Shown here: piece by piece, positions 30,854 through 58,055 of the stretch
How the letters are laid out: every line of letters starts with the position of its first letter
How positions within the stretch are numbered: position 1 is the first letter of the stretch
DNA from: Bryobacterales bacterium
GTDB taxonomy: Bacteria > Acidobacteriota > Terriglobia > Bryobacterales > Bryobacteraceae
Reading direction: 5' to 3'
Length of the DNA stretch: 64,000 nucleotides
NCBI GenBank assembly: GCA_003142185.1
Contig: PLOR01000018.1
Span: 1 to 64,000, forward strand
Translations under genes and position numbers: made by a program
Notes under the pieces: generated by a model
The model's database searches: none
What the model was told of the DNA's origin: nothing
Seen by the model: only the letters and a program-made list of their open reading frames with translations

Positions 30854-30970
30854 TGTGGCGCACGCACTCCTGCGTGCCGCGTCGGCATTCTTGCCGACGC
30901 CCGGTGCACCCGGGGAGAAGACGCGTCGAGAAGAGTCTCGACGCTGCACGCATGAGTGCGTGCGCCACGG
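30854..30970. repeat. Full-length modular palindromic repeat, family A
   Basis: This is the cleanest copy. It has the end modules GTGGCGCACGCACTCCTGCG and, at the right end, GCATGAGTGCGTGCGCCACG, which pair with each other. Between them are two internal hairpins, GTCGGCATTCTTGCCGAC and GTCGAGAAGAGTCTCGAC. It lies between the convergent kduD and VOC genes and so could act at the 3' ends of both transcripts. Confidence 0.8.
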
Positions 30971-35025: not shown

Positions 35026-36302
35026 TCCTTCCGTTCGCCCTTGCCGCCGGCATCGCCGGCCTCATCCTTTGGGCCAGGCTTGACGATCCGCACTTTGGCA
35101 TTGTCGTCGAGGCCCACGCCGCCGGCCGTGACCACCTGGTCGCCGGGCGAAACGCCGCTCAGGATCTGCACCTTGCCGCCATCGCGCGCACCGGTCTCGA
35201 TGGTCTTTCGATGAACCGTAGAATCGGTGCTCACCACCAGCACCGCAGCGCCGCCTTCTTCGCCGGGCAGGATGGCGGCCGCGGGAATCACCACCGCGCG
35301 CGGGATGGTTTCGGTAACGATTCTCAAACGCACGCCGGCGCCCGGCTTGAGCCGTTCGCCGGGGTTGGCCGCCTCCGCCCAGACCTGCACCGTAGTGCTG
35401 GCGGGGTCGGTGGCCGGACTCACCACCGTCACCCGCGCCAGCACCTCCGTCTGGCCGTCCGTGAGACGGATGGCGGCGGCGTTGCCGATTTTGATACTCG
35501 CGGTCAGCGCCTGGGGGACGTTGGCGCGCGCCACCACGCGGGACGTATCCATCACCGTCAGCAACGGGCTGCCGGGCGCGGCCATTTCGCCGGCGTAGAG
35601 CGGCCGGTCGGCAATCACGCCCGCGATCGGGCTCAAGATTTCCGAATAGCTCACCTGCGCGGCGGCGGAGCGATACTGCGCCTGCGCCGCGGCCACCTGC
35701 GCCTGCGCGGTCTTGATTTGTTCCTGCTTGCCCACGCTCTGGAAAGCATGGAGGTGCTCGCTCGCGGTTTCAAACTGCGCCTTCGCCTGCGCGTAGGTCA
35801 CCGCGGCATCGTCCACCGACTTGCGCGCCAGGGCGCCATCCTGGAAGAGTTTCTGCCGGCTTTCCAGGGCGCGGCGCGCGGCGTCGAGCTGTTCCTGGTC
35901 GGAAGCAACGTCGGTCTGCGCCTTCATGACGGCTTCGGGAACGGCAGCTGATTCGGTGCTGCGCAGATTGGCATCGGCCTGATCCACCTGGCTCTTGGCG
36001 GCGTTTTCAGCCGCCACCAGATCGCGATTCTCGATCACCGCCAGCAGTTGCCCAGCACGCACGTGGTCGCCCCGATTGACGAGGAACTTCTGCACCGGCG
36101 CGCTGATCTTCGGCATCACGGAGGCCTGGTCGATGGGGTACAGCACGGCGTCGGCTTCCACCACCCGGCGAATGGAATCCTGCGCAACGGCACTCACCTC
36201 CACCGGCGCCATGCTTTCTGCCTCGTCCACTGCCCTCTTGGCGCAGCCGGTGGCGAGCAGGCAGAGGGCGACGATTGTCGCAATGCTGCCGCCGTGGCGC
36301 AC
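35022..36302 (-). CDS. RND efflux periplasmic adaptor (membrane fusion protein), lipoprotein
   Basis: The adaptor of the tripartite pump is about 426 residues. A lipoprotein signal, GSIATIVALCLLATGC, ends in a lipobox cysteine, 20 residues from the GTG chosen here (36302). Next come a lipoyl half (VMPKISAPVQKFLVNRGDHV), a long alpha-hairpin rich in Ala/Gln/Glu (about 95-215), the second lipoyl half (SPIAGVIADRPLYAGEMAAPG) and beta-barrel/proximal domains. An upstream in-frame ATG at 36428 with AGGAG next to it would add 42 residues. Almost all of those are encoded by a family A palindromic repeat (36293-36408), so the repeat appears to have entered the start region and now supplies the start codon or an N-terminal extension. 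Confidence 0.85.
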   Translation of the reverse strand: MRHGGSIATIVALCLLATGCAKRAVDEAESMAPVEVSAVAQDSIRRVVEADAVLYPIDQASVMPKISAPVQKFLVNRGDHVRAGQLLAVIENRDLVAAENAAKSQVDQADANLRSTESAAVPEAVMKAQTDVASDQEQLDAARRALESRQKLFQDGALARKSVDDAAVTYAQAKAQFETASEHLHAFQSVGKQEQIKTAQAQVAAAQAQYRSAAAQVSYSEILSPIAGVIADRPLYAGEMAAPGSPLLTVMDTSRVVARANVPQALTASIKIGNAAAIRLTDGQTEVLARVTVVSPATDPASTTVQVWAEAANPGERLKPGAGVRLRIVTETIPRAVVIPAAAILPGEEGGAAVLVVSTDSTVHRKTIETGARDGGKVQILSGVSPGDQVVTAGGVGLDDNAKVRIVKPGPKDEAGDAGGKGERKE

Positions 36303-36408
36303 GCACTCGTGCGTGCTGCGTCGAATCTCTACTCGACGCCTCTGCGTCCTGGGGCAGCGGGCGTCGGCAGGAGTGCCGCCGCGGCACGCACGAGTGCGTG
36401 CGCCACAA
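36293..36408. repeat. Family A palindromic repeat overlapping the efflux-adaptor start
   Basis: GTGGCGCACGCACTCGTGCG at the left end and CGCACGAGTGCGTGCGCCAC at the right end are complementary terminal modules. GTCGAATCTCTACTCGAC (36308-36330 region) and GTCGGCAGGAGTGCCG (36363-36380 region) are the internal ones. It is the third near-complete copy and is read through in the adaptor frame without a stop codon. Confidence 0.75.
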
Positions 36409-44793: not shown

Positions 44794-44953
44794 TTATTCC
44801 CTTATAACCTGCCTTTGCGGTTTGCGTGTGTAACAACATCGGAACCCATGGTCTGGTGCCTTCCATAACATGACTGGAACATAGGTAAACTCTGCCGTAA
44901 ACTGTCTTGCTGTCTGAAGGATCGGCCCCTCTTCCCAGTATCATTGGGTCACG

Positions 44954-45898
44954 ATGCGCCGGGCCATGATACTCAGCATGCGCGGGTTGTCACTGGCAGT
45001 TATGGCTGCGGGCGCCGCTGCGCAGAACCCCGTCACATCGGGCACCGGCGGATACGTGGGCAGCAACGCCTGCAAAACCTGCCACGCCGACGTCTGGCTG
45101 AACTTTTATAAAAACCCGCATTTCAAAAGTGTGGCATCCGGCGATTTGCCGCCCAGCCGCACAGGTTGTGAAAGCTGCCACGGGCCGGGCGAAGCGCACG
45201 TGGCCGCACACGGCGGCAAGGCTACCATCCCCAATGCGTTTTCCCTGATGCCGCAGGCCAAGGCGCTCGAAGCCTGCCTCACCTGCCACGCGCGCGATTT
45301 TCAAAAGGCCAATATACGACGCTCGGAGCACACGCTCGCCGATGTCGCCTGCACTTCCTGCCATTCCATTCATCATTCGCCAACACCCAAGTTCCTCCTC
45401 GCCAAAAAGCAGACGGAACTGTGTTACGGATGCCACGCCGGCATCCGTGCGCAATTCGAAATGCCCAGCAAGCACCGAGTCAACGAAGGCTTCATGGAGT
45501 GTTCGGATTGCCACAATCCCCATGGCGCATTCGCTCCCACCTGGCGCATGTCGGATCACCCGCGCATGGTGGACCAGGCATTGAACAATGAAGAGCCCTG
45601 TCTGAAGTGCCACGTGGATAAGCGCGGCCCGTTCGTATATGAGCACCCGCCGGTGCGCGTGGAAGGCTGCGAAATCTGTCACTTTCCGCACGGCTCGACT
45701 AATGAGCGCCTGCTGCGGCGGCCGGTCGTGTTCACGCTATGCCTGGGATGCCACAACGGTGGCGCCTCCGGCACTCGCAACAACGGCGTCCCCCTGCAGA
45801 CGTCGCCGCACAATTTGCTCGATCCGCGCTTCCAGCGCTGCACCGCGTGCCACGTGCGTATCCATGGATCGAACGCCGACGAGACCTTTCTGCGATGA
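44954..45898 (+). CDS. Decaheme c-type cytochrome (MtrA/DmsE-like)
   Basis: The 314-residue exported protein has a signal peptide (LSLAVMAAGAAAQ) and ten CxxCH heme-binding motifs: CKTCH, CESCH, CLTCH, CTSCH, CYGCH, CSDCH, CLKCH, CEICH, CLGCH and CTACH. Ten hemes in about 290 residues is the size class of MtrA, PioA and DmsE, which form a heme wire through an outer-membrane barrel. Its stop codon overlaps the start of a large beta-barrel gene (ATGA), exactly the porin-cytochrome arrangement. It should carry electrons across the outer membrane. No inner-membrane CymA-like donor or extracellular MtrC-like partner is in the window. Confidence 0.9.
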   Translation: MRRAMILSMRGLSLAVMAAGAAAQNPVTSGTGGYVGSNACKTCHADVWLNFYKNPHFKSVASGDLPPSRTGCESCHGPGEAHVAAHGGKATIPNAFSLMPQAKALEACLTCHARDFQKANIRRSEHTLADVACTSCHSIHHSPTPKFLLAKKQTELCYGCHAGIRAQFEMPSKHRVNEGFMECSDCHNPHGAFAPTWRMSDHPRMVDQALNNEEPCLKCHVDKRGPFVYEHPPVRVEGCEICHFPHGSTNERLLRRPVVFTLCLGCHNGGASGTRNNGVPLQTSPHNLLDPRFQRCTACHVRIHGSNADETFLR

Positions 45899-47922
45899 CC
45901 GCCATGCTCAAACGCTGCTGCCTGATTTTCGCCGTCTGCGGCACCCTGCGGGCGCAAGAGACGATCGCACCGACACCCGAAGCGGTGGGCATTGCGCGCG
46001 GCGGCGATTTCGCCAATTACAATATCGTCGATTCGTTCGAACTCGGCTACCGCTGGCGTGCGACCGGCGGCAGTGTGGACACTTATCGCAGTGACGTCAA
46101 TTACGGCGACGGCATCCGCCTGTTGGCGACCAACCTAAGTATCAATTCGAAGGAGGGCCATGGCCGTTGGTTTGACGAGATAGTGCTTTCCACCAGCGGC
46201 CTCGGCAACGACCCTTATCAGACGGCCAGCCTGCGGATCCAGAAGAACGGCCTTTATCGTTACGACATGCTCTGGCGCGAGGACGATTACTACAACCCCT
46301 GCCTGGTGATCTCCGGCGGCGAGCACCTCATGGACACCGTGCGCGGGTTACAGAATCACTCTCTGACGCTCTTTCCAGAGTCGCACTTCCAAGTGGAACT
46401 GGGTTACAGCCGCAATACGGACAACGGACCGGCTCTTTCCACCGTGCAGGGTTTCGATACGTTTTCCTCCGCCTTTCCAGTGTTTGAAAACGTGAAGCAG
46501 CAGTGGAACGAGTACAGCGTCGGCATTTTGGCCGATTGGGCTGGTCTCCGCTTCATCGCGCGTCATACGTGGGATTTCTATAAGGACGATTCCAACTACA
46601 GTCTCACCGGCGCCGAGACCTCCGGCGTGGCGACTGATCCCACGGTGCTCACGTCATTCCAACGTTCGGAACCGAACCATGGATCGAATCCGGGCTGGTT
46701 CGGCAACGTTTATGGCAGCCACAAATACTGGGCGCTCAACGCGCGCCTGACTTACAACCTGGGCACGGGCGGATTTGCGCTGAATGAGGTGACGACCGGA
46801 CTGAACAGCATTGGCGCGGCGGAAAATCGCCAGGTGGTGGTGAGTGGCGATGCGCAACGGCCGGTGGTGGCCGGCGATTTCAGCTTCAGCGTTTTCCCCA
46901 CCAGCCGCCTCAGCATCGTCAACAATACGGCGGTGCATGACACCCGTATCGACGGCGATTCCTCCTTCACCGAATTCGATAACGGAACCGGCACCAGCAC
47001 CACGCTGAACTTCAAATTTCTCGGCGTGCGCACCGTCGCCAATTCGACCGACCTGAACTATCGTTTCAACAACTGGTTCAGCGCCTATGCCGGCTTCACC
47101 GATTCCGACCGCCAGATTCGGTTTCTGGAGGCGTTTTCGTTTCCGTCGGTGGCCGGCAGCGCGGTGAGCGACCTTTACCAACAGACCAGCCACTTGAACG
47201 CCGGCAGCTTCGGCGTCCGTTTCCGCCCTCTCCGGCCGCTTTCGATCAACCTGGAAGGCGAAGTTGGTCATGCCGATCACCCGCTCGCGCCGATGAGCGA
47301 CCGCAACTACCACACGCTCGGCGGACGCATTCAGTACCGCGCGCGCAAGCTCCAGCTTTCCACCGGCTACCGGGAGCTCGATAACGAGAACGCTCCGCTT
47401 TCTTTCACGACCTACAGTTCGCGATCGCGGCAATACAACGCGGCGGCTTCTTTTGCTTTGCGGGATTGGCTGACCTTCGATGCCAGTTACTCGAAGCTGC
47501 ACCTGGATACCGTGGGCGGGCTGGCATTCTTCGCGGGCATCCAATCCCCGCAGCTCCAGACCAGTTACGACTCGATTTACATTAGTAACATCCACGCCGC
47601 CAATGCGGGCGTGCGTTTCGGCATCGGCCGTCGCGCCGACCTATACGCCGGCTACACCATCACGAAGGACACCGGCGACGGCCGCTCCTCGGCGGTGCCG
47701 GTTGGAGTAACCGATCCGATCGCGGCACTACTCGACTCCGTCCAGACCTTCCCGCTGACCTATCAGTCTCCGATGGCACGGCTCTCGATTCGAATAACGC
47801 CCAAGCTGCGCTGGAACGCGGGATGGCAGTTCTATGGCTACGGCGAATTGTTTCACTTGCTGGGTGAGAACCAGAATTTCCACGCCAACACCGGCTACAC
47901 CAGCGTGCTTTGGTCGTTCTGA
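45895..47922 (+). CDS. MtrB/PioB-like outer-membrane beta-barrel of porin-cytochrome complex
   Basis: The 675-residue protein has a signal peptide (LIFAVCGTLRAQ) and then repeated amphipathic strands with aromatic ends, closing with YTSVLWSF, a normal barrel end. MtrB/PioB proteins of this size form a wide barrel that sheathes a decaheme cytochrome. The ATG at 45895 overlaps the cytochrome stop codon; the frame is open further upstream but there it only shadows the cytochrome gene. The CxxC near the N-terminus of Shewanella MtrB is not present. With the cytochrome it would conduct electrons between periplasm and cell surface; direction and acceptor are unknown. Confidence 0.8.
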   Translation: MTAMLKRCCLIFAVCGTLRAQETIAPTPEAVGIARGGDFANYNIVDSFELGYRWRATGGSVDTYRSDVNYGDGIRLLATNLSINSKEGHGRWFDEIVLSTSGLGNDPYQTASLRIQKNGLYRYDMLWREDDYYNPCLVISGGEHLMDTVRGLQNHSLTLFPESHFQVELGYSRNTDNGPALSTVQGFDTFSSAFPVFENVKQQWNEYSVGILADWAGLRFIARHTWDFYKDDSNYSLTGAETSGVATDPTVLTSFQRSEPNHGSNPGWFGNVYGSHKYWALNARLTYNLGTGGFALNEVTTGLNSIGAAENRQVVVSGDAQRPVVAGDFSFSVFPTSRLSIVNNTAVHDTRIDGDSSFTEFDNGTGTSTTLNFKFLGVRTVANSTDLNYRFNNWFSAYAGFTDSDRQIRFLEAFSFPSVAGSAVSDLYQQTSHLNAGSFGVRFRPLRPLSINLEGEVGHADHPLAPMSDRNYHTLGGRIQYRARKLQLSTGYRELDNENAPLSFTTYSSRSRQYNAAASFALRDWLTFDASYSKLHLDTVGGLAFFAGIQSPQLQTSYDSIYISNIHAANAGVRFGIGRRADLYAGYTITKDTGDGRSSAVPVGVTDPIAALLDSVQTFPLTYQSPMARLSIRITPKLRWNAGWQFYGYGELFHLLGENQNFHANTGYTSVLWSF

Positions 47923-47981
47923 GTGCGTTGCCACAAGCCAAGCCGAGCGTGCCCGGCCCGGTCGCCGATTGATAACCGGCG

Positions 47982-48008
47982 CACACCGGCGGCAAGACCG
48001 CCGGCGCA
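47982..48008. repeat. Family B repeat arm
   Basis: CACACCGGCGGCAAGACCGC and the following CGGCGCAAC match the right arm of the inverted repeat at 27857-27937. A weaker inverted partner, GTGCCCGGCCCGG, lies about 30 bases upstream. The element follows the barrel gene and could act as a 3' stem-loop. Confidence 0.5.
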
Positions 48009-48027
48009 ACCGAACCTCCGCGATACT

Positions 48028-48082
48028 TTTACACCCTCTTTACAATTCCCCAACGACCTCTGATTGGCCTTCCCGTTAACAT
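48028..48082 (+). promoter_or_regulatory. OmpR-type direct-repeat operator and promoter of the regulatory block
   Basis: TTTACA (48028-48033) and TTTACA (48039-48044) are 11 bases apart start to start, and a third, weaker half-site CCAACG follows in the same phase (48050-48055). TAACAT at 48077-48082 follows the second repeat by 32 bases. Exactly this layout occurs upstream of the sugar transferase gene (53333-53387). Tandem sites with 11-base period are what OmpR/PhoB-type dimers bind. Confidence 0.65.
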
Positions 48083-48104
48083 CCGTATCGAGGGCTGAAT
48101 CAAC

Positions 48105-48512
48105 ATGGAACCACTTTGGGCTGCAAACACGAATCGGGAACCCTACCAGGACACCCGTCTGACGATTGACTTCGCGAATCGCGCGGTGACGCTGGATTCC
48201 CAATCCATCTCGTTGACCGCCAAGGAATACCTGCTGCTGAGCTTTCTGGCGGCTAACCAAGGCGAGATCTTCACGCGGACGGATCTGCTGTTAGCCATCT
48301 GGGGCTACGGCGGCCAGATCCGAACCCGGACGCTGGACGTGCACCTGGCCCGCCTGCGCAAGAAGTTGGGCGCTTTCGGTCACCGGCACCTGGAATCGGT
48401 GTGCGGCAATGGCTGCCGCTATCAGCCGCCGCGGGAGCCGCGCGAAGTGGCCCCTCCGCTTTCGTATCGCGCATGCGCGACGATGGGGAATCCGATAGAA
48501 TTAAGGGCCTGA
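48105..48512 (+). CDS. Stand-alone OmpR-type winged-helix DNA-binding protein
   Basis: The 135-residue protein consists of one Trans_reg_C winged helix (about 18-110): ISLTAKEYLLLSFLAANQGEIFTR, then the recognition-helix region TRTLDVHLARLRKKLG. No receiver domain is present, so it cannot be controlled by phosphorylation of its own aspartate. It starts 22 bases after the TAACAT element and ends three bases before the full-length response regulator. It may bind the same direct repeats, as competitor or partner. An alternative is a response regulator that lost its receiver domain by duplication and deletion. Confidence 0.82.
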   Translation: MEPLWAANTNREPYQDTRLTIDFANRAVTLDSQSISLTAKEYLLLSFLAANQGEIFTRTDLLLAIWGYGGQIRTRTLDVHLARLRKKLGAFGHRHLESVCGNGCRYQPPREPREVAPPLSYRACATMGNPIELRA

Positions 48513-48515
48513 AGC

Positions 48516-49190
48516 ATGCAGACCATCCTGGTCATCGACGATGATGCCGGCATTCGCGAAGTAATCGGTGTAATGCTGGAGAAGGAGGGGTTTCGCGCGA
48601 TTTTCGCGGCCGATGGCAAGATCGGCTTGCAGGAAGCCATGACCGCGCGCCCCAACCTGATCGTGGTTGACCTCCGCATGCCCGGTCTCAGCGGCGTGGA
48701 CGTCTGCAAAACACTGCGTAACGCCGGAGTGCAGACGCCGCTGATCGTGCTCAGCGCCATCGGCGACGAGATCGACAAGGTGCTGATGCTCGAAATTGGA
48801 GCTGACGATTACATTGTCAAGCCCTTCGGTACGCGCGAGCTGCTGGCTCGGATCCGCGCGGTCCTGCGCCGCACGACTACCGAAGCCAGTCACGCCATCA
48901 CTTTTTCCGACGTCGAAGTCGATCTCGACCGTTCCCTGGTGCACAAGCACGGTGACGAGGTTAAGCTCACCAAAGCGGAGTACAAGCTGCTGGTATTCTT
49001 CGTCCAGAACCCGGACCGGGCTTTGAGCCGCGACGTGCTTCTTAACTCGGTGTGGGGCTACGACGCCTTTCCGAATACGCGAACGGTGGACGCTCACGTG
49101 GTGCGCCTGCGCCAGAAACTGGAGACGGAATCGGAGACGCCCCGCCATTTCGTGACCATGCACGGCGTCGGTTATCGTTTCATCCCTTAA
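48516..49190 (+). CDS. OmpR-family response regulator
   Basis: The 224-residue protein has a receiver domain (acidic Asp8-Asp9 pair, phospho-acceptor Asp52 in VVDLRMPG, Ser80, Lys102 in YIVKPFG) and a C-terminal winged helix (KLTKAEYKLLVFFVQNP, NTRTVDAHVVRLRQKL, GVGYRF). Phosphorylated proteins of this type dimerise and bind tandem repeats of 10-11-base period. Such repeats are present before this operon and before the sugar transferase gene. The histidine kinase four genes downstream is the likely partner. Confidence 0.93.
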   Translation: MQTILVIDDDAGIREVIGVMLEKEGFRAIFAADGKIGLQEAMTARPNLIVVDLRMPGLSGVDVCKTLRNAGVQTPLIVLSAIGDEIDKVLMLEIGADDYIVKPFGTRELLARIRAVLRRTTTEASHAITFSDVEVDLDRSLVHKHGDEVKLTKAEYKLLVFFVQNPDRALSRDVLLNSVWGYDAFPNTRTVDAHVVRLRQKLETESETPRHFVTMHGVGYRFIP

Positions 49191-49202
49191 GGACGTGGAG
49201 CA

Positions 49203-49583
49203 ATGATCCTGCGCCGTACGGTACTTCTGGTCGAAGATGAATCCCACTGTATCTCCACGCTGGAAATCGCCTTCGACAGCGATACGGAGCCCCGCCTGGC
49301 TCACACATCCACGGCGGAAGAGGCGCTGCTGATTCTGGACTCGACCGAAATCGCGGCGGTCATCACCGACATTCACCTCCCATCGATGGACGGCTTCGAA
49401 CTGATCGCGCGGTTGAGAAACCAGCCGCGCTTCGCCCACTTGCCCATCCTCGTCACTAGCGGTGACCCGGATCCGGCCTCTCCGGAGCGCGCCCTGAGCC
49501 TGGGCGCGAACGCGTATTTCCCCAAGCCTTACTCGCCCAGCGCCATCCGGCGCAAGGTCAAGGAATTGATCCATGCATCCTAA
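49203..49583 (+). CDS. Single-domain response-regulator receiver (CheY-like)
   Basis: The 126-residue protein is a bare receiver domain. VLLVEDESH gives the acidic pocket, Asp56 in VITDIHLPSMDG is the phosphorylation site, VTSGDP supplies the switch Ser/Thr, and FPKPYSP the conserved lysine. With no output domain it probably acts by protein contact or as a phosphate sink in a relay with the kinase and the OmpR-type regulator of the same cluster. Its 3' end overlaps the porin gene by 11 bases. Confidence 0.9.
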   Translation: MILRRTVLLVEDESHCISTLEIAFDSDTEPRLAHTSTAEEALLILDSTEIAAVITDIHLPSMDGFELIARLRNQPRFAHLPILVTSGDPDPASPERALSLGANAYFPKPYSPSAIRRKVKELIHAS

Positions 49584-50922
49584 GCTGCGTGTCTTTTTCC
49601 TGGTGTTGGTTCCCGGCATATTGGCCGCACAGTCGCGCGACCCGGCGGACCTGGAACGTATTCTTCAGCGCCTAGACGTTCTGGAACAGCAGAACCGCGA
49701 GCTGATGTCGGAGATCCGCGCGCTGCGCGAGCAGATTGCTTCCGCGACTGCCGCTTCCACCGCAGCATCCCCTCCGGCCGCCCCGCCTGTTGCGGAGCGG
49801 ATCGATGTGGCGGAACAGCGGATCCAGGACCTGGCACAGACCCGCATCGAATCCGAGCACCATTCGGCGATCCAGCTCACAGGCATGGTTCTCTTCAATT
49901 CGTATATGAACGGCAAATACGGCGGCGGCGCGCAGGACCCCACCACTGCTGACGCCGCGGCCGCCGCGCGTTCCGACGGCGCCACGCTACGCCAAACCAT
50001 TGTCGGGCTGAAGTTCCAGGCGCCCGAGCGTTTCGCCGGAGCCGAAGTCTCCGGCGACGCTTACGTGGACCTGTTTGGCGGCTCCGGTGACTCGCTGGAC
50101 CAGTTGGTCCGTTTACGGATCGCTTCCCTCAATTTTCAGTGGACGAACACCACCTTTACGGTGGCGCAAGACAAACCCATCCTGGCGCCCCGCGAACCGG
50201 ACTCACTGGCCCAGGTCGGCTACTCTCCGCTCACCGGCGCCGGCAACCTTTGGCTCTGGCGGCCGCAGGCACGCATCGAGCAGCGGTTTCTATTCGGCGA
50301 TTCGGCCGGGTTCCGCGCCCAAGCCGGAGTCCTCGAAACCAGCGAGGCCGGCAACGTTGCCGCCGAATACTCCTCTTACGCACCGGCCGGCCGGCCGGCA
50401 CTCGAAGGCAGATTCGTGTTTTGGATGAAGTCCGGCGACAATGGCAACTTCGAGATCGCGCCCGGTTTCCATGTTAGTAACTCGCAGTTACTTGGGGTTT
50501 CGGTGCCGTCGCGCATTGCGTCCGTGGACTGGCGCATTCCTCTGGCGCGCGCCTTCACGCTCACTGGCGCGGTTTTTCTCGGCGAGAACCTGGGCGTGAT
50601 CGGCGGCCTTCGCCAAGGCATCGTGGTACCCTACAGCGGGGTTCCGCAGCCGGTGCATGGCGCCGGCGGCTGGGCGCAACTCGAGTATCGCGCCACGCGC
50701 CGCCTCGCGTTTCACCTGTTTGGCGGCGAGGAAGACGACCGCAACCGCGACCTGCAGACTGGCCTGATCTCCAAGAACCAGTCCTACGGCGCTAACGCCA
50801 TGTATCAGATTGTCTCGAATGTGGTGGCCAGCTTTGAGTCGGCAATCGTCCAGACGGCGTACATTGGGTCGCCAACGCGCCTCAACCCTCACTATGACCT
50901 TGCTTTCGCGTATCTGTTTTAG
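49573..50922 (+). CDS. Outer-membrane porin-like protein with N-terminal coiled coil
   Basis: The 449-residue protein has a signal peptide (FFLVLVPGILAAQS), then a coiled-coil stretch (about 25-60, DLERILQRLDVLEQQNREL). A barrel-like part follows, beginning IQLTGMVLFNSYMNG and ending YDLAFAYLF with terminal Phe. This resembles DcaP/phosphate-selective-porin-like trimers that use a periplasmic coiled coil. It lies between receiver and cupredoxin genes, overlapping both, so it is made as part of the same unit. It could admit the compound or metal that the system senses; substrate unknown. Confidence 0.75.
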   Translation: MHPKLRVFFLVLVPGILAAQSRDPADLERILQRLDVLEQQNRELMSEIRALREQIASATAASTAASPPAAPPVAERIDVAEQRIQDLAQTRIESEHHSAIQLTGMVLFNSYMNGKYGGGAQDPTTADAAAAARSDGATLRQTIVGLKFQAPERFAGAEVSGDAYVDLFGGSGDSLDQLVRLRIASLNFQWTNTTFTVAQDKPILAPREPDSLAQVGYSPLTGAGNLWLWRPQARIEQRFLFGDSAGFRAQAGVLETSEAGNVAAEYSSYAPAGRPALEGRFVFWMKSGDNGNFEIAPGFHVSNSQLLGVSVPSRIASVDWRIPLARAFTLTGAVFLGENLGVIGGLRQGIVVPYSGVPQPVHGAGGWAQLEYRATRRLAFHLFGGEEDDRNRDLQTGLISKNQSYGANAMYQIVSNVVASFESAIVQTAYIGSPTRLNPHYDLAFAYLF

Positions 50923-51604
50923 CGCCGCGATGGCGTGCCCGGGTTTCGCCGCCACGGTGTTGGGCCGCGTGGAGCTGGTCGATTCGCGCGCGCCGGCGGT
51001 CCGCCAGCACCACGACTATTCCGGAGTGGCCGTCTGGCTGGAGCCCGTCGGGGCGGTGCGGCCGCCGGCCCCGTTGCACGTCCAGATGCTGCAGAAGGAC
51101 AAAATGTTTCAGCCACATCTGCTGATCGTTACAGTCGGCTCTACGGTGGATTTTCCCAATCTCGATCCGATCTTTCACAATGCTTTCTCCAATTACGATG
51201 GCCAGCTTTTCGATGTCGGCCTGTATCCGCCCGGCTCCACGCGCAGCATTCACTTCAGCCGCCCCGGCATCGTGCGTGTGTTTTGTAACATCCATTCCAG
51301 TATGAGCGCGGTCATCGTGGTGCTGGATACGCCCCTATTCGGCGTCTCCAAGGCGGACGGACGTTTCGATATCGCCGGCGCACCGGAGGGCGAGTACGAT
51401 CTCACTTTCTTTCACGAACGCGCCACCGAAACCGCGCTGCGAAGCGCGGGCCGCCGCGTCACCGTCTCCGGCGAGCGCGTTTCGATTCCGCCAGTCTCCA
51501 TTTCCGAGACCGGCTACCTCTCCATTCCGCATAAGAACAAGTACGGGCAGGATTACCCGCCTGCGCCGGACGACGCGGGCTTCTATCCCGCCACTCACAA
51601 ATAG
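50894..51604 (+). CDS. Exported cupredoxin-like protein with type-1 copper ligand set
   Basis: The ATG at 50894 overlaps the porin gene by 29 bases and opens a signal peptide (ICFSAAMACPGFAA). In the 236-residue product a cupredoxin-like fold offers the classic type-1 copper ligands His95 (FHNAF), Cys131, His134 and Met137 (FCNIHSSM). A short carboxypeptidase-regulatory-like tail follows (DGRFDIAGAPEGEYDL). Similar proteins are often labelled 'methylamine utilization protein'. It could shuttle electrons or bind copper in the periplasm. Being next to a porin and a histidine kinase, and downstream of a multiheme cytochrome pair, suggests a redox or copper circuit. Confidence 0.78.
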   Translation: MTLLSRICFSAAMACPGFAATVLGRVELVDSRAPAVRQHHDYSGVAVWLEPVGAVRPPAPLHVQMLQKDKMFQPHLLIVTVGSTVDFPNLDPIFHNAFSNYDGQLFDVGLYPPGSTRSIHFSRPGIVRVFCNIHSSMSAVIVVLDTPLFGVSKADGRFDIAGAPEGEYDLTFFHERATETALRSAGRRVTVSGERVSIPPVSISETGYLSIPHKNKYGQDYPPAPDDAGFYPATHK

Positions 51605-51606
51605 CC

Positions 51607-53304
51607 GTGCGCCACCTGCAATCCATGTCGCTGCTGTGGAAGATCATGCTTTCCACCTCGGTGGCCATCATCTGCCTGCTGGCTGTAGCCGGCTGGCTGG
51701 TGCAGAACCACTTCATGCGCATCGCCGCCGTCATGCTAGATGAAGAAGTGGCCGCCAGCTCCCGCGCCTATGAATCGCTGTGGAGCGCCCGTGCGGAGCG
51801 GCTGGCGTCGGTCAGCCTTGTGCTGAGCCGCATGTCCGACGTGCGCGCCGCATTTGGCACGCGCGATCAGACCACCATCCGCGATACCGCCAGCGAGCTC
51901 TGGAACAGCATCGCTCCCAGCCGCACTCTGTTTTACGTGCTGGAGCCTGGAGGAGCGGTGGTTGCCTCGCTCGGTTCGGCGGAGGAGATCGCTCCCAGTT
52001 TCCCGCTCGCCGCCGCCGCCGCTCGCTTTCCCGGCCAAGCCACTGGATTCGTGATCGAAAATGGACGGCTTTACCAGACCGTGGTGACGCCGGTGTATGT
52101 AGCCGCTGCGCAAGGATCGGCGCTGCTCAATGTGCTGGTCGCCTGCTTCGAGGTGGATGCCACTCTGGCGCACGAGCTGAAGCAAGCCACCGGCAGCGAC
52201 TTCGTCTTCTTTTCGCGCGGACGGCCCATCGCATCGACGCTTCCCGTCAGCGTGCCCGGGGATCTTACGCGCCGGGAGCAGGTCCGCATCGCCGATTCGA
52301 ATTATGCGCAGTTCGTCATGCCGCTCGCTGACATTGCAGGCCGCCAGGTCGGCGAACTGCGCATTCTGCGCTCCTTCCAGGCCGCCGACCGGCGCCTGGC
52401 GACGCTGCGCGTTCAGATGGTGGTGATATGGATGCTGGCGATCTGCCTCGGGCTCGCCGGCACGTACCTGTTGGCCCGGCGCATCGTGCAGCCCGTCCGC
52501 GCTTTGGAGCGGGCAGCCGAGCGAATCGCGACCGGCGACTACGACGCGCAGGTCCCCGTGTCCAGCTCGGACGAGCTGGGACGCCTGGCCGAAAGCTTTA
52601 ACGAAATGTGCGCTTCCCTGCGCATTGCGCGCCAGGAGTTGATTCGCCAGGAGCGGATCGCCACCGTCGGCCGACTGTCTACCTCGATCATCCACGATCT
52701 CCGCAATCCCCTGGCGGCGATTTACGGCGGCGCGGAAATGCTGGTGGATGCAGAACTCTCCGCCGACCAGGTAAAGAAGCTTGCATCCAGCATCTACGGC
52801 TCGTCGCGGCGGATTCTGGCGATGCTGCAGGAACTGGCCGACACCAGCCGCGGCCACAGCCGGCGCCGCGAAGCCTGCCGCTTGCGCGATGTGGTTCTCG
52901 CCGCCTGCGATTCGCTCGCCGATGCCGCCGCCCGCCCCGGCGTCTCTCTGGCATGCGATGTTTCGCCCGAGATCGAACTCACCCTCGACCGGCCGTCCGT
53001 CGAGCGAGTCTTCCAGAACCTGATCGCCAACGCCATCGACGCTCTGCCGCACGGCGGCCACGTGCGCGTTTCCGCCGAGTCCGCGGACCACTCTGTGATC
53101 GTGAGCGTGGAGGACGACGGCGCCGGCATCAGCAGCGAAGTGCGTCCGCATCTGTTCGAGCCTTTCGCCACCGCCGGCAAGCGCCACGGAATGGGCCTCG
53201 GGCTGGCCCTGTCGAAGCGGACCATCCTCGATCACGGCGGCGAGATTTGGGCCGACTCCACGACCGGCCCCGGCGCTCGCTTCCTGATTCGCCTGCCCGC
53301 CTGA
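51607..53304 (+). CDS. Membrane sensor histidine kinase (HAMP, HisKA, HATPase)
   Basis: The 565-residue kinase begins at a GTG two bases after the cupredoxin gene. It has a first membrane helix (about 9-31), a 230-residue periplasmic sensing domain, a second helix (about 272-290), a HAMP linker and the H-box SIIHDLRNPLAAI with phospho-acceptor His363. The ATPase boxes NLIANAID, VEDDGAGIS, FEPFATAGK and GMGLGLALSK are all complete. It is the natural partner of the OmpR-type regulator and the lone receiver. The sensing domain looks cache-like, but its ligand is unknown; position suggests copper, redox state or a compound passed by the porin. Confidence 0.9.
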   Translation: MRHLQSMSLLWKIMLSTSVAIICLLAVAGWLVQNHFMRIAAVMLDEEVAASSRAYESLWSARAERLASVSLVLSRMSDVRAAFGTRDQTTIRDTASELWNSIAPSRTLFYVLEPGGAVVASLGSAEEIAPSFPLAAAAARFPGQATGFVIENGRLYQTVVTPVYVAAAQGSALLNVLVACFEVDATLAHELKQATGSDFVFFSRGRPIASTLPVSVPGDLTRREQVRIADSNYAQFVMPLADIAGRQVGELRILRSFQAADRRLATLRVQMVVIWMLAICLGLAGTYLLARRIVQPVRALERAAERIATGDYDAQVPVSSSDELGRLAESFNEMCASLRIARQELIRQERIATVGRLSTSIIHDLRNPLAAIYGGAEMLVDAELSADQVKKLASSIYGSSRRILAMLQELADTSRGHSRRREACRLRDVVLAACDSLADAAARPGVSLACDVSPEIELTLDRPSVERVFQNLIANAIDALPHGGHVRVSAESADHSVIVSVEDDGAGISSEVRPHLFEPFATAGKRHGMGLGLALSKRTILDHGGEIWADSTTGPGARFLIRLPA

Positions 53305-53332: not shown

Positions 53333-53387
53333 TTTACGCTCTGTTTACACCAGGCCAACAAGGCCCGGAACGCGATGACGGTAACAT
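53333..53387 (+). promoter_or_regulatory. OmpR-type direct-repeat operator upstream of sugar transferase gene
   Basis: TTTACG (53333-53338), TTTACA (53344-53349) and CCAACA (53355-53360) form three half-sites with 11-base period. TAACAT (53382-53387) follows the second half-site by exactly 32 bases. The half-site spacing, third half-site and distance to TAACAT are the same as at 48028-48082, although the spacer bases differ. Conservation of geometry only is expected for a functional regulator-controlled promoter. Confidence 0.65.
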
Positions 53388-53403: not shown

Positions 53404-54066
53404 ATGGGTTCGATCGGGATTGTTCGCGAAACATCGCCCACCGTCGATCTGGTATGGCAGGCGGTCGGAATCGCCGAGCGAGTTACCTCCGCTGTCTTAC
53501 TCGTGGCTATAAGTCCGGTAATCGGCGCCAGCGCGGTCGCGGTGTCGTTTCTATCGCGCCGCACGCCGCTGATCGCCCACCGCCGTGTAGGATGGTGCGG
53601 ATCGACGCTCTGGATGCTCAAGCTCCGCATTATGTGGGGCCAGGACTCACTGCGGGCAGCGACAGGCTCTCATTGGATCGAGTATATCCACGACGACGAA
53701 GGACCCGAGAACAAACAGGATTCCGATCCTCGCGTAACCCACTGGTTCGCGCGCTTCTGCCGCCGCCATTCCTTGGACGAAATCCCGCAACTCTGGCACG
53801 TGATCGCGGGCGAAATGTCGCTGGTTGGTCCCCGGCCGCTTACCGCGACCGAACTCGCTCGGCACTATGGCGCCGCGGCGCAGGAGATCCTTCAAGTCAA
53901 GCCGGGACTCGCTGGGCTGTGGCAGGTGTCGGGACGCAATCGGTTGAGCTACCCCGAGCGGCGCAGCCTGGACCTGAAGTTGGCGCGAAACCGCTCGTTG
54001 CGGATGTATCTGCAAGTATTGTTACGGACGATCCCCGAAGTGCTGCGCGGGAGTAACTCCTGGTAA
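53404..54066 (+). CDS. Undecaprenyl-phosphate sugar phosphotransferase (WbaP/WcaJ catalytic domain)
   Basis: The 220-residue protein is the catalytic half of initiating sugar transferases. It has one hydrophobic re-entrant segment (VTSAVLLVAISPVIGASA), then RRVGWCGSTLWMLKLR, SDPRVTHWFARFCRRHSLDEIPQLWHV, and GEMSLVGPRPLT near the active site, followed by PGLAGLWQVSGRN. It transfers a sugar-1-phosphate to undecaprenyl phosphate and so starts repeat-unit assembly. The long membrane domain of WcaJ-type enzymes is missing, so it is a small monotopic type. It heads the exopolysaccharide genes but carries the same operator geometry as the two-component block upstream. Confidence 0.9.
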   Translation: MGSIGIVRETSPTVDLVWQAVGIAERVTSAVLLVAISPVIGASAVAVSFLSRRTPLIAHRRVGWCGSTLWMLKLRIMWGQDSLRAATGSHWIEYIHDDEGPENKQDSDPRVTHWFARFCRRHSLDEIPQLWHVIAGEMSLVGPRPLTATELARHYGAAAQEILQVKPGLAGLWQVSGRNRLSYPERRSLDLKLARNRSLRMYLQVLLRTIPEVLRGSNSW

Positions 54067-54067
54067 C

Positions 54068-54160
54068 AGGTAGGACAGACCATCGCTGTCCGTGGTCTGT
54101 CCTGCCTCGCTAAAACACGACGCCTCGACAGGCGACAAAAGACGATCGCCTGTCCTACCT
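54068..54160. repeat. Compound inverted repeat between convergent genes
   Basis: Outer arms AGGTAGGACAG (54068-54078) and CTGTCCTACCT (54150-54160) are perfectly complementary. Within the left part GGACAGACCA (54073-54082) pairs perfectly with TGGTCTGTCC (54093-54102). It lies between the convergent sugar transferase and TIGR03437-type genes and is well placed to end transcription from both sides. Confidence 0.65.
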
Positions 54161-54174
54161 CTGGCTCGGCGGGC

Positions 54175-54990
54175 CTAATTCGTAACCGCGATCGTAACCT
54201 GATCCGTGGTCGTGATCCCGTTCATTACGAATTGCAATGGGACCGCGTTGCCCGTGGGAGTGCCGGGAGCAAGGATGATGTTGATCTGGTAGACGCCGGG
54301 AAACTGGGGCTGCATCCCGGAAAAGACCAATTGGGCCTCCACGCCGCCAACCATCACGGTGGGATTCGTCACGGTGTAATGAACTTGACCGTCGGTAACG
54401 GCGCTTCCCGTGGTTACGGGAGGGTTCACGGCGCCCAGCCCGGTGGCCAGGATCGCCAGGGTGCTCGTGTCGCCGATCTTTGCTGGATGCGTAGTCAATC
54501 CGGAGACTGCACCCGGTGCCGCGGCAAGTTGGCCGTCACTGTTGCCATAAGCGATGGCTTGGCCGACTCCGAAGTTCACCGCGAAAATGCCCGGCCCGGA
54601 GGGTATGACATTGAGGTTTACAGGCGCCGACACGGCACTGCCGCGGGTGACGGTCACTTGCGCATTGCCGGTGCCCACCGCGAACGGCAACTGGGCGTTA
54701 ATCTGATCGCCGTTTACGGGATCGTGATTTACAAACAGCAGCGGCGCAGGTATGTTGTTAAACATCACAGTCACGGCGCCCAGCGATGTGGAGAGGGGGA
54801 TGGTATCGGCTTGGGCCAGGCTGGTGGCGAGGTTGGTCCCGAAGATCGAAACCAAAGAACCAGGAGCCACTCCTTGGTTAGTCGCAAAGCTCGCCGCATT
54901 CAGCACTCCCCCCGATGCCACAACTGGCGTTTGGGCAAATACCGTAGCCGCACAAGCGAGAGTTAGTAGAGCTATAAAGGTGAGTTTCAT
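54175..54990 (-). CDS. Exported TIGR03437-type protein of Bryobacterales
   Basis: From the ATG at 54990, preceded by AGGAG, the product is 271 residues; a longer in-frame start at 55170 would run through the upstream gene's end and is rejected. A signal peptide (FIALLTLACAATVFAQ) is followed by GGVLNAASFATNQGVAPGSL, SIFGTNLA and GVYQINIILAPG. These are hallmarks of the beta-rich domain of unknown function greatly expanded in Solibacter-like bacteria. It is probably a surface or secreted protein. It stands alone as a single domain; in other proteins the domain sits at the C-terminus of longer chains. Function unknown. Confidence 0.85.
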   Translation of the reverse strand: MKLTFIALLTLACAATVFAQTPVVASGGVLNAASFATNQGVAPGSLVSIFGTNLATSLAQADTIPLSTSLGAVTVMFNNIPAPLLFVNHDPVNGDQINAQLPFAVGTGNAQVTVTRGSAVSAPVNLNVIPSGPGIFAVNFGVGQAIAYGNSDGQLAAAPGAVSGLTTHPAKIGDTSTLAILATGLGAVNPPVTTGSAVTDGQVHYTVTNPTVMVGGVEAQLVFSGMQPQFPGVYQINIILAPGTPTGNAVPLQFVMNGITTTDQVTIAVTN

Positions 54991-55053
54991 TTTGCTTCTC
55001 CTGTTGTCTATTCTAAGTGCGTCGGTCGCCTGATTCACTCTTCCGGATGAGAT

Positions 55054-55100
55054 TTTACCTAGGTTGCCCGCCGTGCGCGATGACAGTTTACTTAGGTTGC
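55054..55100. repeat. 14-bp direct repeat with 33-bp period upstream of the TIGR03437-type gene
   Basis: TTTACCTAGGTTGC (55054-55067) and TTTACTTAGGTTGC (55087-55100) differ at one base and start 33 bases apart, three helical turns of 11. The first lies 64 bases before the minus-strand start codon at 54990; the second covers the stop codon of the Wzy-TPR gene. Phased repeats suggest a regulator site. Confidence 0.5.
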
Positions 55101-56920
55101 GCGGAAACTTGGCGCTGTTTCGCACTAATGTCGTGCGACGTACGAGTAACTTCGGGGAACTTTCCGCCATCCAGCACTGCGGCCAAAGCGGCTTCCCGCT
55201 GTGCCTCTTCCAATCGAGATTCGATAAGAAGCAACTGCGCCAGCGTCCAGTGCGGTTTGAACCACTGGTTGTCGGCCGCGATCGCTGCGTGCAGGCTTAT
55301 CTCGGCGCCCGCAGCATCGTTTTGCGAGGCACAGAGTTCCGCCAGGTTGTACCATGCGTTGGCTGGGTATTCCGTCGTGCCGATGGCCCGCAGGGCTGCG
55401 CTTCCGGCTTCGACTGTGGCCCGTACCGCGGTCGCCGGGCTCTTGGTCCGGTGTGCCAGGTCGAACAGTGCGCGCGAATACCAGAGGTCGGCGGCGGTTC
55501 CCGGAAGCCGCCAATGTTCATATTCGAGATAGTGGGCGGCAGCCAACGCGGCGTCACCGGAATTGATATCGAGTTGAGCCAGCGCCAGGGCGCTATCCGA
55601 AACGGTGAAGCGCACACCAAAGCAGATCAGCGCCAGCGCCAACGCGAGTGCTAGGAGTTTGGAAAGCATCCGCCGCTGCGCCACGACCGTCTCGCACCCA
55701 AGCCCGACCGCGACGGCGACGATTATATAGAACGTCAGCGCCGTGGGTATCGTGAACGCCACAAACTGCTGGCTGACAATGGCCGCCGCCAGAGCGGCCG
55801 CCATCCAGGCGGCCAATGCGCTTCTCTTCGCCCGCAACCGCCATGCTGCCGCGAACCCGGCGGCACAAATGCCGCAAAGCGCCGCCAGGCCGGGAAGGCC
55901 TTGCGCCACAAGTGAATCGAGAAACATATTGTGCGGCGATTCGTGGGCGAAGTCGGGATAGGCCACCGCCAGTTGCCGCGATTCATAACGAGGAAACGCC
56001 GCGCTGAAAACTTCCGGGCCATACCCAACGGCCAGCCGATCCACCGCCATGCGCGCGCTGTCGCGCCATAGATACAGCCGCGCGCCGCCCCACGGGTCTT
56101 CGGCAAACCACCTCGCGCGGCTGCGCATTTGCAATCCGGCCGGCGAAGAATAGAAGACCAGGCCAGCCAGAACCACCATCGCCAAGCCCGCGATCAGCCG
56201 CCGCGTCAAGTGGAGCCCCCTCCAGATGAGCCATACACCACCGCCGGCCAACAGACCGACGTAAGCTCCGCGCGTCCCACTCAGTAACATCGCACCAACG
56301 GAGATCACCGCTGATGCACCGGCGATCCACCGCCATGTTACATTGGTATCCGACTCCAGGCCAGCCAAACTCGCGAAGCAGGCCATATTCAACCAGACTG
56401 CGAAGTAACTGGAGTAACCGAGGGTTCCAGGTGCCCGGACAATTGTCCAAACGCCTTCCCCTATGTGATATGCCGAGGCCGGAAGGAATGGGTCCCATCC
56501 GCAGTACTGGGCAATTCCGTACACTGCTGCGAGCAGAGCGCTAGCTGAAATCCCGCGCAGAATGGCTGTGGCTCGCTCCGCACGCCCGGCAATGTGAGTG
56601 GCGACCAGAAATGCAACGGCCAGAATGCTGGCTTGGGACAGAGCTCCGTAACGCCTCCAGGAGGTTCCGTATAGCGATAGCGCGGGGCTGGCAGAAAGGA
56701 TTGTGGATAGGGCTAGGGAGCCTAATCCGAAGAGCACCACTGGCGAGAACCAGGGAAAGCCCCGTATGCGAACCGGACTCCGAAAGGCCCAGGCAACCAG
56801 CAGAGCAGCCGTAAAGGCGAGCAGCACCACTAACTTGGGAGTGACATCAAAGTAAAATAACAGACCGGGCGTTACAATTAACGCTACTAACGGGACAATC
56901 AAGGCAACTAAGAACGCCAT
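55088..56920 (-). CDS. O-antigen ligase/Wzy-like membrane protein with C-terminal TPR region
   Basis: The 610-residue protein has about 12 membrane helices in its first 470 residues. The Wzy_C/ligase signature lies in the large loop, with GTRGAYVGLLAG and YESRQLAVAYPDFAHESPHNMFLD; the H-x-x-P-H-N motif is typical of O-antigen ligases. The C-terminal 140 residues form TPR-like helices (WYSRALFDLAH, WYNLAELCASQ-DAAGAEISLHAAI). Such proteins join or polymerise lipid-linked glycans on the periplasmic face; the TPR tail resembles that of pilin/S-layer glycosylation ligases. Its start lies only 28 bases from the divergent Wzz-like gene. Confidence 0.85.
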   Translation of the reverse strand: MAFLVALIVPLVALIVTPGLLFYFDVTPKLVVLLAFTAALLVAWAFRSPVRIRGFPWFSPVVLFGLGSLALSTILSASPALSLYGTSWRRYGALSQASILAVAFLVATHIAGRAERATAILRGISASALLAAVYGIAQYCGWDPFLPASAYHIGEGVWTIVRAPGTLGYSSYFAVWLNMACFASLAGLESDTNVTWRWIAGASAVISVGAMLLSGTRGAYVGLLAGGGVWLIWRGLHLTRRLIAGLAMVVLAGLVFYSSPAGLQMRSRARWFAEDPWGGARLYLWRDSARMAVDRLAVGYGPEVFSAAFPRYESRQLAVAYPDFAHESPHNMFLDSLVAQGLPGLAALCGICAAGFAAAWRLRAKRSALAAWMAAALAAAIVSQQFVAFTIPTALTFYIIVAVAVGLGCETVVAQRRMLSKLLALALALALICFGVRFTVSDSALALAQLDINSGDAALAAAHYLEYEHWRLPGTAADLWYSRALFDLAHRTKSPATAVRATVEAGSAALRAIGTTEYPANAWYNLAELCASQNDAAGAEISLHAAIAADNQWFKPHWTLAQLLLIESRLEEAQREAALAAVLDGGKFPEVTRTSHDISAKQRQVSAQPK

Positions 56921-56948
56921 ATAGGTTACACTAGCTCAAGTAAACAGG

Positions 56949-58055
56949 ATGGCGGACTCAACGGACGCGTTTCGTTACGTAGGTTACATCAAGTTGCGCT
57001 GGCGCACGCTCGCGACAAGCTGTGCGATTGCCGTGACTCTCGCGCTGGTTGCGACTCTGCTGATGCCTCGCCAATACACGGCGACGGCTCGTATCGTCAT
57101 CGATCCGCCGGCGGGAGCGGACATTCGCGCCGCCATGGCGGTGAGTCCTATCTACCTGGAGTCACTTAGGACCTACGAGCGCTTTGCCACTGCCGGCGGC
57201 CTCTTTCAAAAGGCAGTGGAACGCTTCGGCCTGCGGCAGTTACTCGGGAACCGTCCGATCGAATCGTTGCAGAAGAGCGTGCTGCGGGTTGAGATTGTGC
57301 GCAACACGCGCATTCTGGAGATTGCCGCCACTCTGCCGGATCCGCAACGGGCGCAAGCGCTAGCTCGATTCTTGGCCGACGAGACGGTGGAAATGAATCG
57401 GGCCATCGCGATGCAGGGTGCACTGGACCTGGTGGAAGCCGTCGCTCAAGAGGAGCGCCGCGCGCAGGCCCGTTTGCAGGAGACCGACGCCGCCTGGTCC
57501 CACATGTTGGCCGGCGAACCGGTGGACGCGCTGCAATCGGACCTGACCGTGGCGGCTGGCTTGAGGTCGGACATGCAGCACCAGATCGCCAGCGCCGAAC
57601 TCGAAATCGCCGAATCCGCGGATCGTGCCTGGCAGGTTCAGGCCAGCATGGCCCCAAGCACCTCTCGCGCTCGCTTGCAGGAACTGCGACGACAACTGCT
57701 TGCGCTCGATCGACAGGAGGCGGAACAGCAGAAGCTTCTGGCGCAGCGGCTGGCGGATCGCGACAAGCTCGAAAGCGAGCGCAAGGCCGATGAAGCCGCG
57801 CTGACCGCGATGGAGCAACGGCTCGGCGAAGCCCGTGGCGAGTCCGGTTACCGTGGCGAGCGGCTCAGAATCATCGACCCGGCGATCGTTCCGGAGAGGC
57901 CGTCTTCGCCGAATCTGCCCCTCAACCTGGCGGCGGCGCTGTTGTTAGGCCTGCTACTGCCGATGATCTATTTCACGCTGGAGATGAGCTACCAGGAACA
58001 GCGGGCGGGTTCGCGGCGCGGCGAGTTTCGCGCGGTGGGAGAAGGCGGCCGGTGA
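56949..58055 (+). CDS. Wzz/GumC-like polysaccharide chain-length determinant
   Basis: The 368-residue protein has an N-terminal membrane helix (about 20-42), a Wzz domain (YTATARIVIDPPAGAD), a long coiled-coil periplasmic region (about 145-300) and a second helix near 320-340 preceded by the proline-rich PERPSSPNLPLN. This is the polysaccharide co-polymerase layout without an attached tyrosine kinase domain. It would control the length of the polymer made by the Wzy-like protein of the next gene, whose start it overlaps (GTGA). Confidence 0.88.
   Translation: MADSTDAFRYVGYIKLRWRTLATSCAIAVTLALVATLLMPRQYTATARIVIDPPAGADIRAAMAVSPIYLESLRTYERFATAGGLFQKAVERFGLRQLLGNRPIESLQKSVLRVEIVRNTRILEIAATLPDPQRAQALARFLADETVEMNRAIAMQGALDLVEAVAQEERRAQARLQETDAAWSHMLAGEPVDALQSDLTVAAGLRSDMQHQIASAELEIAESADRAWQVQASMAPSTSRARLQELRRQLLALDRQEAEQQKLLAQRLADRDKLESERKADEAALTAMEQRLGEARGESGYRGERLRIIDPAIVPERPSSPNLPLNLAAALLLGLLLPMIYFTLEMSYQEQRAGSRRGEFRAVGEGGR

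Follow-up and report, generated by a model that had tools for sequence, protein, structure and literature searches.

We analysed a 64,000-nt stretch of contig PLOR01000018.1 from a Bryobacterales bacterium (hereafter the window; genome of 5.79 Mb) and found in it a two-component operon that is real, conserved and of unusual make-up, and that lies repeatedly, here and in other genomes, beside a cytochrome-barrel pair of the MtrAB type lacking MtrC. Our preferred reading, to which we give about an even chance, is that the OmpR-type regulator of this operon controls its own genes and, in the window and in several other lineages, also the MtrAB conduit, so that two adjacent units would form one regulon. 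This reading is built on the gene families, the conservation of the operon, the boundary of the module, its recurrent adjacency to the conduit and the placement of a short direct repeat.

Two units on one strand

The first-pass annotation had listed eight genes on a single strand between 44954 and 53304, and all eight frames are open there (Table 1). They fall into two blocks, unit 1 (44954-47922, cytochrome and barrel) and unit 2 (48028-53304, hereafter the module). The latter consists of an operator followed by genes for a lone winged helix (wH), a response regulator (RR), a bare receiver (REC), a DcaP-like porin, a type-1 cupredoxin and a dCache_3 kinase. The tight spacing reported earlier was confirmed inside both blocks. 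The barrel ATG at 45895 overlaps the cytochrome stop in the ATGA already described, and the genes of unit 2 are separated by 3 bp (wH-RR), 12 bp (RR-REC), -11 bp (REC-porin), -29 bp (porin-cupredoxin, assuming a cupredoxin start at 50894) and 2 bp (cupredoxin-kinase). It does not extend across the junction of the blocks, where 182 bp containing the operator separate the barrel stop from the wH start. Judging from this gap, cytochrome pair and regulatory block are probably transcribed separately. A single eight-gene operon was considered and rejected in view of the operator-bearing gap together with the module boundary at 48027 seen in the nearest relative (see below). A strong terminator between barrel and wH was also looked for, and the sequence 47925-48025 folds no better than its shuffles (z -0.13).

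Table 1. Features of the MtrAB-sensor locus, in window coordinates
Feature	Position	Strand	Remarks
GTAAA-N7-GTAAA repeat	44885..44901	+	Ends 52 bp before cytochrome ATG; TATCAT box 37 bp further on; period 12; one of nine genome-wide matches
MtrA/DmsE-family periplasmic decaheme cytochrome c	44954..45898	+	10 CXXCH; TIGR03508; best PDB sequence match 6r2q_A
MtrB-fold outer-membrane barrel	45895..47922	+	675 aa; predicted structure
Operator, TGTAAA-N5-TGTAAA direct repeat	48028..48044	-	11-bp period; TAACAT box 32 bp downstream; sole perfect match in genome
Lone OmpR-type winged helix (wH), without receiver	48105..48512	+	Trans_reg_C only
OmpR/PhoB-type response regulator (RR)	48516..49190	+	Pfam and NCBIfam scans
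Stand-alone receiver domain (REC)	49203..49583	+	Pfam scan
DcaP-like porin with N-terminal coiled coil	49573..50922	+	Sequence profile and predicted structure
Type-1 copper cupredoxin, C-terminal CarboxypepD_reg-like part	50894..51604	+	Weak Pfam scores; ligand conservation
dCache_3-HAMP-HisKA-HATPase sensor kinase	51607..53304	+	Pfam scan
Third GTAAA repeat	53333..53349	-	Operator-32 bp-TAACAT spacing as at the wH promoter
Sugar transferase (Bac_transf) behind third repeat	53404..54066	+	Possible further target

The MtrAB pair proposed in the first-pass annotation is real. The cytochrome has exactly 10 CXXCH motifs and matches the DmsE-family model with 282.6 bits (cut-off 192.2), and a profile of 24 sequences finds its best PDB match in the Mtr complex 6r2q (E 2e-45), in a chain that we take to be MtrA and that the sequence file labels otherwise. 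The barrel has no match in Pfam, NCBIfam or PHROG, and its profile finds none among PDB sequences. None of 31 scanned homologues matches an MtrB family, one hitting Porin_4 and one OMP_b-brl at E 0.0008-0.002. Its AlphaFold model (pLDDT 83.4) has MtrB (6r2q_B) as top structure match, with TM scores of 0.66/0.68 against 0.34-0.45 for the other 49 of the 50 matches listed. The decaheme gene adjoins the barrel gene in relatives too. The barrel is thus of MtrB fold by its predicted structure, outside any curated family, and pairs with the decaheme.

No other open frame in the 64 kb has two or more CXXCH motifs and, since there is a single multiheme gene, MtrC is missing and the window holds no MtrCAB. 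The pair resembles MtrAB, MtoAB and PioAB in joining a decaheme and an MtrB-fold barrel as overlapping genes, and MtoAB and PioAB also in doing without MtrC, as the available text of two papers describes them (PMC4245776, PMC8805035). It differs from all three in a barrel outside the Pfam models, in the lack of a second multiheme gene and in its linkage to a two-component operon. Acidobacterial MtrA homologues are already known (PMC3669403, PMC10654088, available text), and the accessible part of Baker et al. 2022 (PMC8805035) places Bryobacterales MtrCAB in a 'Group 5' whose mtrB is followed downstream by a tetraheme cytochrome gene. Group 5 shares bacterial order and protein families with our pair but, going by that part, has the MtrC and tetraheme that our pair lacks. 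A second, MtrCAB-like cluster of the same genome (L055:4028-10505) does resemble Group 5, with an MtrC-like decaheme, an MtrA-like decaheme, an MtrB-like barrel and a 4-CXXCH cytochrome; a similar one is present in genome G001 (L057).

By domain content, the RR (receiver and Trans_reg_C) and the kinase (HisKA and HATPase) form an OmpR-type two-component system. The porin is predicted to be DcaP-like, 6eus being its closest match both in sequence (hmmsearch E 2e-5 across a 60-residue stretch) and in fold (Foldseek rank 1, TM 0.74 by target and 0.58 by query). Strong matches to the wH are confined to the window's own clade (loci L069, L072 and L085), and a weak one (30 bits) occurs in L029. The system shares with the OmpR/PhoB family its RR architecture, its 11-bp direct-repeat operator and an apparent autoregulation, but differs from it in that genes for a porin, a bare receiver and a blue-copper protein accompany the kinase, joined in one clade by the lone winged helix.

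Beyond the kinase, 53404-58055 encodes a sugar transferase, an O-antigen ligase-like protein (Wzy_C) and weakly Wzz/GNVR-like proteins, as in an exopolysaccharide cluster. Two repeats were also seen. An intergenic sequence of about 93 bp (54069-54161) turns up dozens of times in related genomes, with roughly 72-90% identity and twice with matches to both strands at a single site, and looks like a REP/MITE-type element; its L069 copy (5768-5859) lies just before the operator. Another, of about 115 bp, matches both strands (30855-30970 and 36292-36406), and its L069 copy (9062-9176) sits inside the module, between the porin and cupredoxin genes.

A conserved module repeatedly found beside the conduit

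A full-length kinase orthologue (E <= 4.3e-128) was found in 26 of the 61 genomes searched, the window's own included: in 24/37 of the window's family, 2/2 of family f2, 0/18 of family f3 and 0/4 of other families. In a phylum-wide sample, at E 1e-90, it was present in 2 of 297 genomes, the window's own and G025. Using two short peptide patterns over the genome collection, we collected 161 cupredoxin relatives and examined the best 80 loci. The cupredoxin (80) is accompanied by RR in 69, REC in 72, porin in 78 and kinase in 77, in constant order, and several of the missing genes are due to contig ends. All but one of these loci are titled Acidobacteriota, the exception, L101, bearing a probably wrong Acidimicrobiia title. 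Most genomes of the window's family keep the RR-to-kinase core. At two loci, L006 (13462-14004) and L084 (11463-11942), a Haem_bd (PF14376) protein adjoins the module, in L084 right behind a one-mismatch operator copy.

The first-pass annotation had called for a search for the same neighbourhood in other genomes. Removal of 12 near-copies (>=98.5% identical) from 102 kinase rows left 90 loci, window included, and in 9 of them the conduit is close to the module, in three arrangements: upstream on the same strand (window, L006, L090, L105 and L110), divergent (L015, L074 and L129) or downstream (L024). The pair thus adjoins the module in 8 loci besides the window, on separate branches. It is upstream in 7 of the 60 loci with at least 4.5 kb of upstream sequence and downstream in 1 of the 64 with as much downstream; the remaining linked locus, L015, has 3.8 kb on its upstream side. 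Leaving out the window, because it was chosen for its adjacency, and counting L090, L105 and L110 as one lineage, there are 5 cases in 60 (that lineage, L006, L024, L074 and L129), a figure with a probability of 1.6e-7 if one conduit is placed at random in a 6-Mb genome, a model that takes no account of rearrangement hot spots or common ancestry. On a quick kinase tree with SH-aLRT support only, linkage changes at least seven times, all changes being forced by well-supported branches, and the three arrangements argue against a single ancestral linkage. Furthermore, kinase and pair (PCC-A) co-occur within the window's family: 21 genomes have both, 3 the kinase only, 4 the pair only and 9 neither (Fisher 8e-4, ignoring kinship). 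Taken as comparisons of gene position, these counts indicate that the linkage of pair and module is not due to chance.

GTAAA repeats at both units

The perfect operator TGTAAA-N5-TGTAAA occurs once in the window's genome, at 48028. Allowing one mismatch yields 4 sites (3 in a reversed control), among them the one at 53333; for the other two (L149 and L150) no link was seen from nearby open frames. With the looser motif GTAAA-N5-7-GTAAA, three of the nine repeats in the genome lie within these 8.5 kb (44885, 48028 and 53333) and no others in the 64 kb. They flank the units, before the cytochrome, before the operon and after the kinase. Dinucleotide shuffling of the stretch, repeated 1000 times, gave no repeat in 996 cases and one in 4. 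The distance from operator to TAACAT box, 32 bp, is common to the wH and sugar-transferase promoters, and the cytochrome has 37 bp to a TATCAT box.

The repeat also accompanies the module elsewhere. TTTAC-N6-TTTAC, on either strand and at >=9/10 letters, is present upstream of RR in 35 of 69 loci, against 1 of 345 single-letter shuffles. Across the 1.22 Mb of 81 loci, a 12-letter core with one mismatch allowed gives 63 sites, where one single-letter shuffle of all this sequence gives 2. The 63 sites are placed before RR (37), before wH (3), before the cytochrome (3), within 1 kb behind the kinase (8) and elsewhere (12). In four close loci (L079, L082, L086 and L112), perfect operator copies lie about 0.7 kb downstream of the kinase, and the sequence before RR lacks a site even when one mismatch is allowed; in L079, L082 and L112 the gene that comes next, encoded on the opposite strand, looks by eye like a sigma-type regulator.

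We then compared cytochrome promoters. With a strict 14-letter score of at least 11, the operator was found before 7/9 linked and 1/31 unlinked cytochromes (Fisher 1.5e-5), and in 4/6 independent lineages when L015 is left out (p 0.001). Under this score none of 28 unlinked PCC-A promoters has a shuffle p below 0.03, the best being L031 (0.035). A GTAAA repeat of period 11 or 12, at >=9/10, precedes the cytochrome in 7/9 linked loci, window included, in 4/21 unlinked pairs of module-bearing genomes (L030, L031, L152 and L153), in 0/10 pairs of module-free genomes and in 9/329 other upstream regions. Differences from these controls are significant for linked pairs (p 4e-9) and for unlinked pairs of module-bearing genomes (p 0.005), and are conservative, as the controls still include the window's own wH and sugar-transferase upstreams. 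The two periods were allowed after the window's 12-bp site had been seen, which weakens the comparison and makes module-free genomes the fairer test (module-bearing versus module-free, p 0.02). At 10/10 the counts are 3/9, 0/21, 0/10 and 3/329, respectively. The L015 repeat stands in the region that the divergent units have in common, and might act on either of them. Aligning the cytochrome upstream regions was uninformative.

According to the regulon reading, the dCache_3 histidine kinase, with the blue-copper protein as its periplasmic partner, would phosphorylate the OmpR-type regulator, while the DcaP-like porin would admit a small solute. Binding to GTAAA direct repeats at 11-12-bp spacing, the regulator would drive the operon that encodes it. 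In this genome and several other lineages it would also drive the MtrC-less MtrAB conduit, which would pass electrons through the outer membrane, and the sugar transferase may be a further target. We infer the binding of the regulator to the repeats, the feeding of the kinase by the cupredoxin, the signal, the solute of the porin and the direction of electron flow.

Several results weigh against this reading. The nearest relative of the locus, L069 (Bryobacterales bog_375), is homologous to the window at the DNA level (82-85%) in three blocks spanning 48027-53304, from operator to kinase stop, other DNA matches being short repeats of 52-116 bp, and the 18.9 kb of L069 that were examined contain neither cytochrome nor barrel. 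In its genome, G061, the pair is on a contig of 129,664 bases and the module on another of 202,012 bases. L072 (G062) behaves alike, with a module that has no adjoining pair and a pair on another contig. In G063, pair and module are again on different contigs; its L085 starts inside wH, leaving the upstream side unreadable, and no module genes follow in the 4.6 kb behind its barrel. Since the L069 and L072 modules have no adjoining pair and the pair is on other contigs in G061-G063, pair and module are separate units in the window's own clade, together only in the window. G001, tried as an empty-site control, favours neither reading, since only met/cys genes align at the corresponding place (85%). 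The window's cytochrome fails the strict 11-bp score (9/14, p 0.445), as does that of L024; no strict operator precedes it, and its 12-bp-period site was noticed later and then tested genome-wide. Two linked loci, L006 and L024, have no GTAAA repeat before the cytochrome. Nine repeats in the genome are an ordinary count (10 in the reversed control), and it is their placement that is striking, not their number. The seven changes on the tree could include losses besides gains, and with labels shuffled the mean is 8.7 changes, 12 of 500 shuffles needing as few as seven. Finally, G009, G015 and G035 have the kinase without PCC-A, G010, G013, G027 and G033 have PCC-A without the kinase, and in G017 (62% complete) and G020 receiver and kinase remain, with no cupredoxin match.

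In a rival explanation, the MtrAB pair came to lie next to a two-component operon that is complete in itself, and is under separate, unrelated control. Besides the module boundary, the separate contigs and the lack of an 11-bp-period operator before the window's cytochrome, the unequal divergence from G061 speaks for it (kinase 89% identical, cytochrome 68%, barrel 60-62%). However, the adjacency recurs in separate branches and a third of the genome's GTAAA repeats are gathered here, and we regard mere neighbourhood as doubtful, though a serious contender. Of the link drawn in the first-pass annotation, a non-random and probably regulatory association therefore stands, on the recurrent adjacency and the shared GTAAA repeats, and a fixed cytochrome-regulatory arrangement does not: L069 and L072 have no adjoining pair, and most kinase loci keep the pair apart.

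The cupredoxin and its probable receptor partner

The copper ligands of the cupredoxin, H83, C119, H122 and M125 (script numbering), are invariant in 23/23, 24/24, 24/24 and 24/24 covering rows, one further row with His63 being set aside. The protein thus carries the His-Cys-His-Met set expected of type-1 copper, with a Pfam Copper-bind score of 14.5 bits (cut-off 21.2). A 38% identical paralogue in the same genome (cluster G000:C27; L056:6894-10960 and 2880-4943) lies between a 507-aa protein without Pfam match and an FAD/4Fe-4S oxidoreductase, near an 8-CXXCH cytochrome.

Gene order indicates that the steady partner of the cupredoxin is the sensor and not the conduit. Among 51 plasmid records with a cupredoxin homologue, 9 were opened. 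In 6 of them the gene immediately after the cupredoxin encodes a GGDEF-EAL or EAL protein (Comamonas, Caballeronia SBC1 pSBC1_3, C. grimmiae, Novosphingobium EMRT-2, Paraburkholderia and Novosphingobium THN1). A domain scan identified dCache_3-HAMP-GGDEF-EAL in five of these, the dCache_3 of EMRT-2 falling just below cut-off (24.3 vs 25.7), and C. grimmiae is assigned by EAL annotation alone. In another record, H13, an annotated cache-domain fragment follows; in the remaining two (S. meliloti and Rhodobacteraceae S2214), neither an EAL-type nor a cache protein. Similarity between the sensor domains of the window and of Comamonas is weak (28% over 200 aa; E 5e-6 in a single comparison). These proteobacterial loci (Caballeronia, Comamonas, Novosphingobium and Paraburkholderia), whose cupredoxin is named 'Methylamine utilization protein', have the same cupredoxin type directly 5' of a dCache_3-HAMP receptor. 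They differ from ours in their GGDEF-EAL output, here a histidine kinase, and in the DUF3034 gene found nearby in 4 of the 6, where ours has a DcaP-like porin. Because the cupredoxin is paired with the kinase here and stands directly upstream of dCache_3-HAMP receptors in Proteobacteria, it is probably the periplasmic partner of the receptor, whose output module would differ between phyla.

A different role would be that of a direct electron partner, the cupredoxin replacing PioC or MtoD as high-potential periplasmic carrier of an inward, Fe(II)- or mineral-oxidising conduit like MtoAB or PioAB. The intact copper site would suit such a carrier, as would an MtrAB without MtrC (PMC4245776 and PMC8805035, in their available text), and the accessible part of a Sideroxydans study reports MtoA and a different cupredoxin set rising together on magnetite (PMC12016527). 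But the cupredoxin gene is tied to the sensor and not to the cytochrome, the module is kept in the three PCC-A-free genomes named above, and PCC-A is present in G017 and G020, which gave no cupredoxin match, all of which makes this role very unlikely. In these last two genomes (L026 and L025), receiver and kinase are still adjacent and porin and cupredoxin are missing, a natural deletion for comparison.

The first-pass annotation had also suggested copper responsiveness. A copper protein beside an OmpR-type pair would fit a CusRS/CopRS-like homeostasis system with a copper chaperone. However, across 25 rows the kinase sensor domain conserves E, S, Y, W, R, F and D, and no His, Met or Cys at 95%; the heavy-metal RR and histidine kinase models score far below their cut-offs (157.8 vs 279.2 and 97.9 vs 292.55); and none of the eight genes encodes a copper exporter or multicopper oxidase. 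By its residues and scores the sensor is not of CusRS/CopRS type, and copper homeostasis is highly improbable. Copper sensing finds no support here, because the sensor lacks conserved His, Met and Cys and the eight genes lack an exporter.

Redox sensing by the operon is possible. Our literature search, which mostly lacked subscription papers, found no description of this operon, its operator or its MtrAB link, of a cupredoxin-kinase or cupredoxin-EAL arrangement, or of the regulation of outer-membrane electron conduits in Acidobacteriota. A bolder proposal, which we hold to be quite unlikely as a whole, is that the redox-active copper protein is the signal-input subunit of dCache_3 receptors with exchangeable outputs, a histidine kinase here and GGDEF-EAL in Proteobacteria, and that, in Bryobacterales, it senses the electron pressure of the periplasm and thereby sets MtrAB expression. 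If true, cells would adjust their external electron wire according to the redox state of a blue-copper protein. The locus gives a specific regulator, operator and target set for conduit regulation, and the pairing of cupredoxin and dCache_3 receptor, which occurs in two phyla and with a different output in each, is a candidate class of redox sensors.

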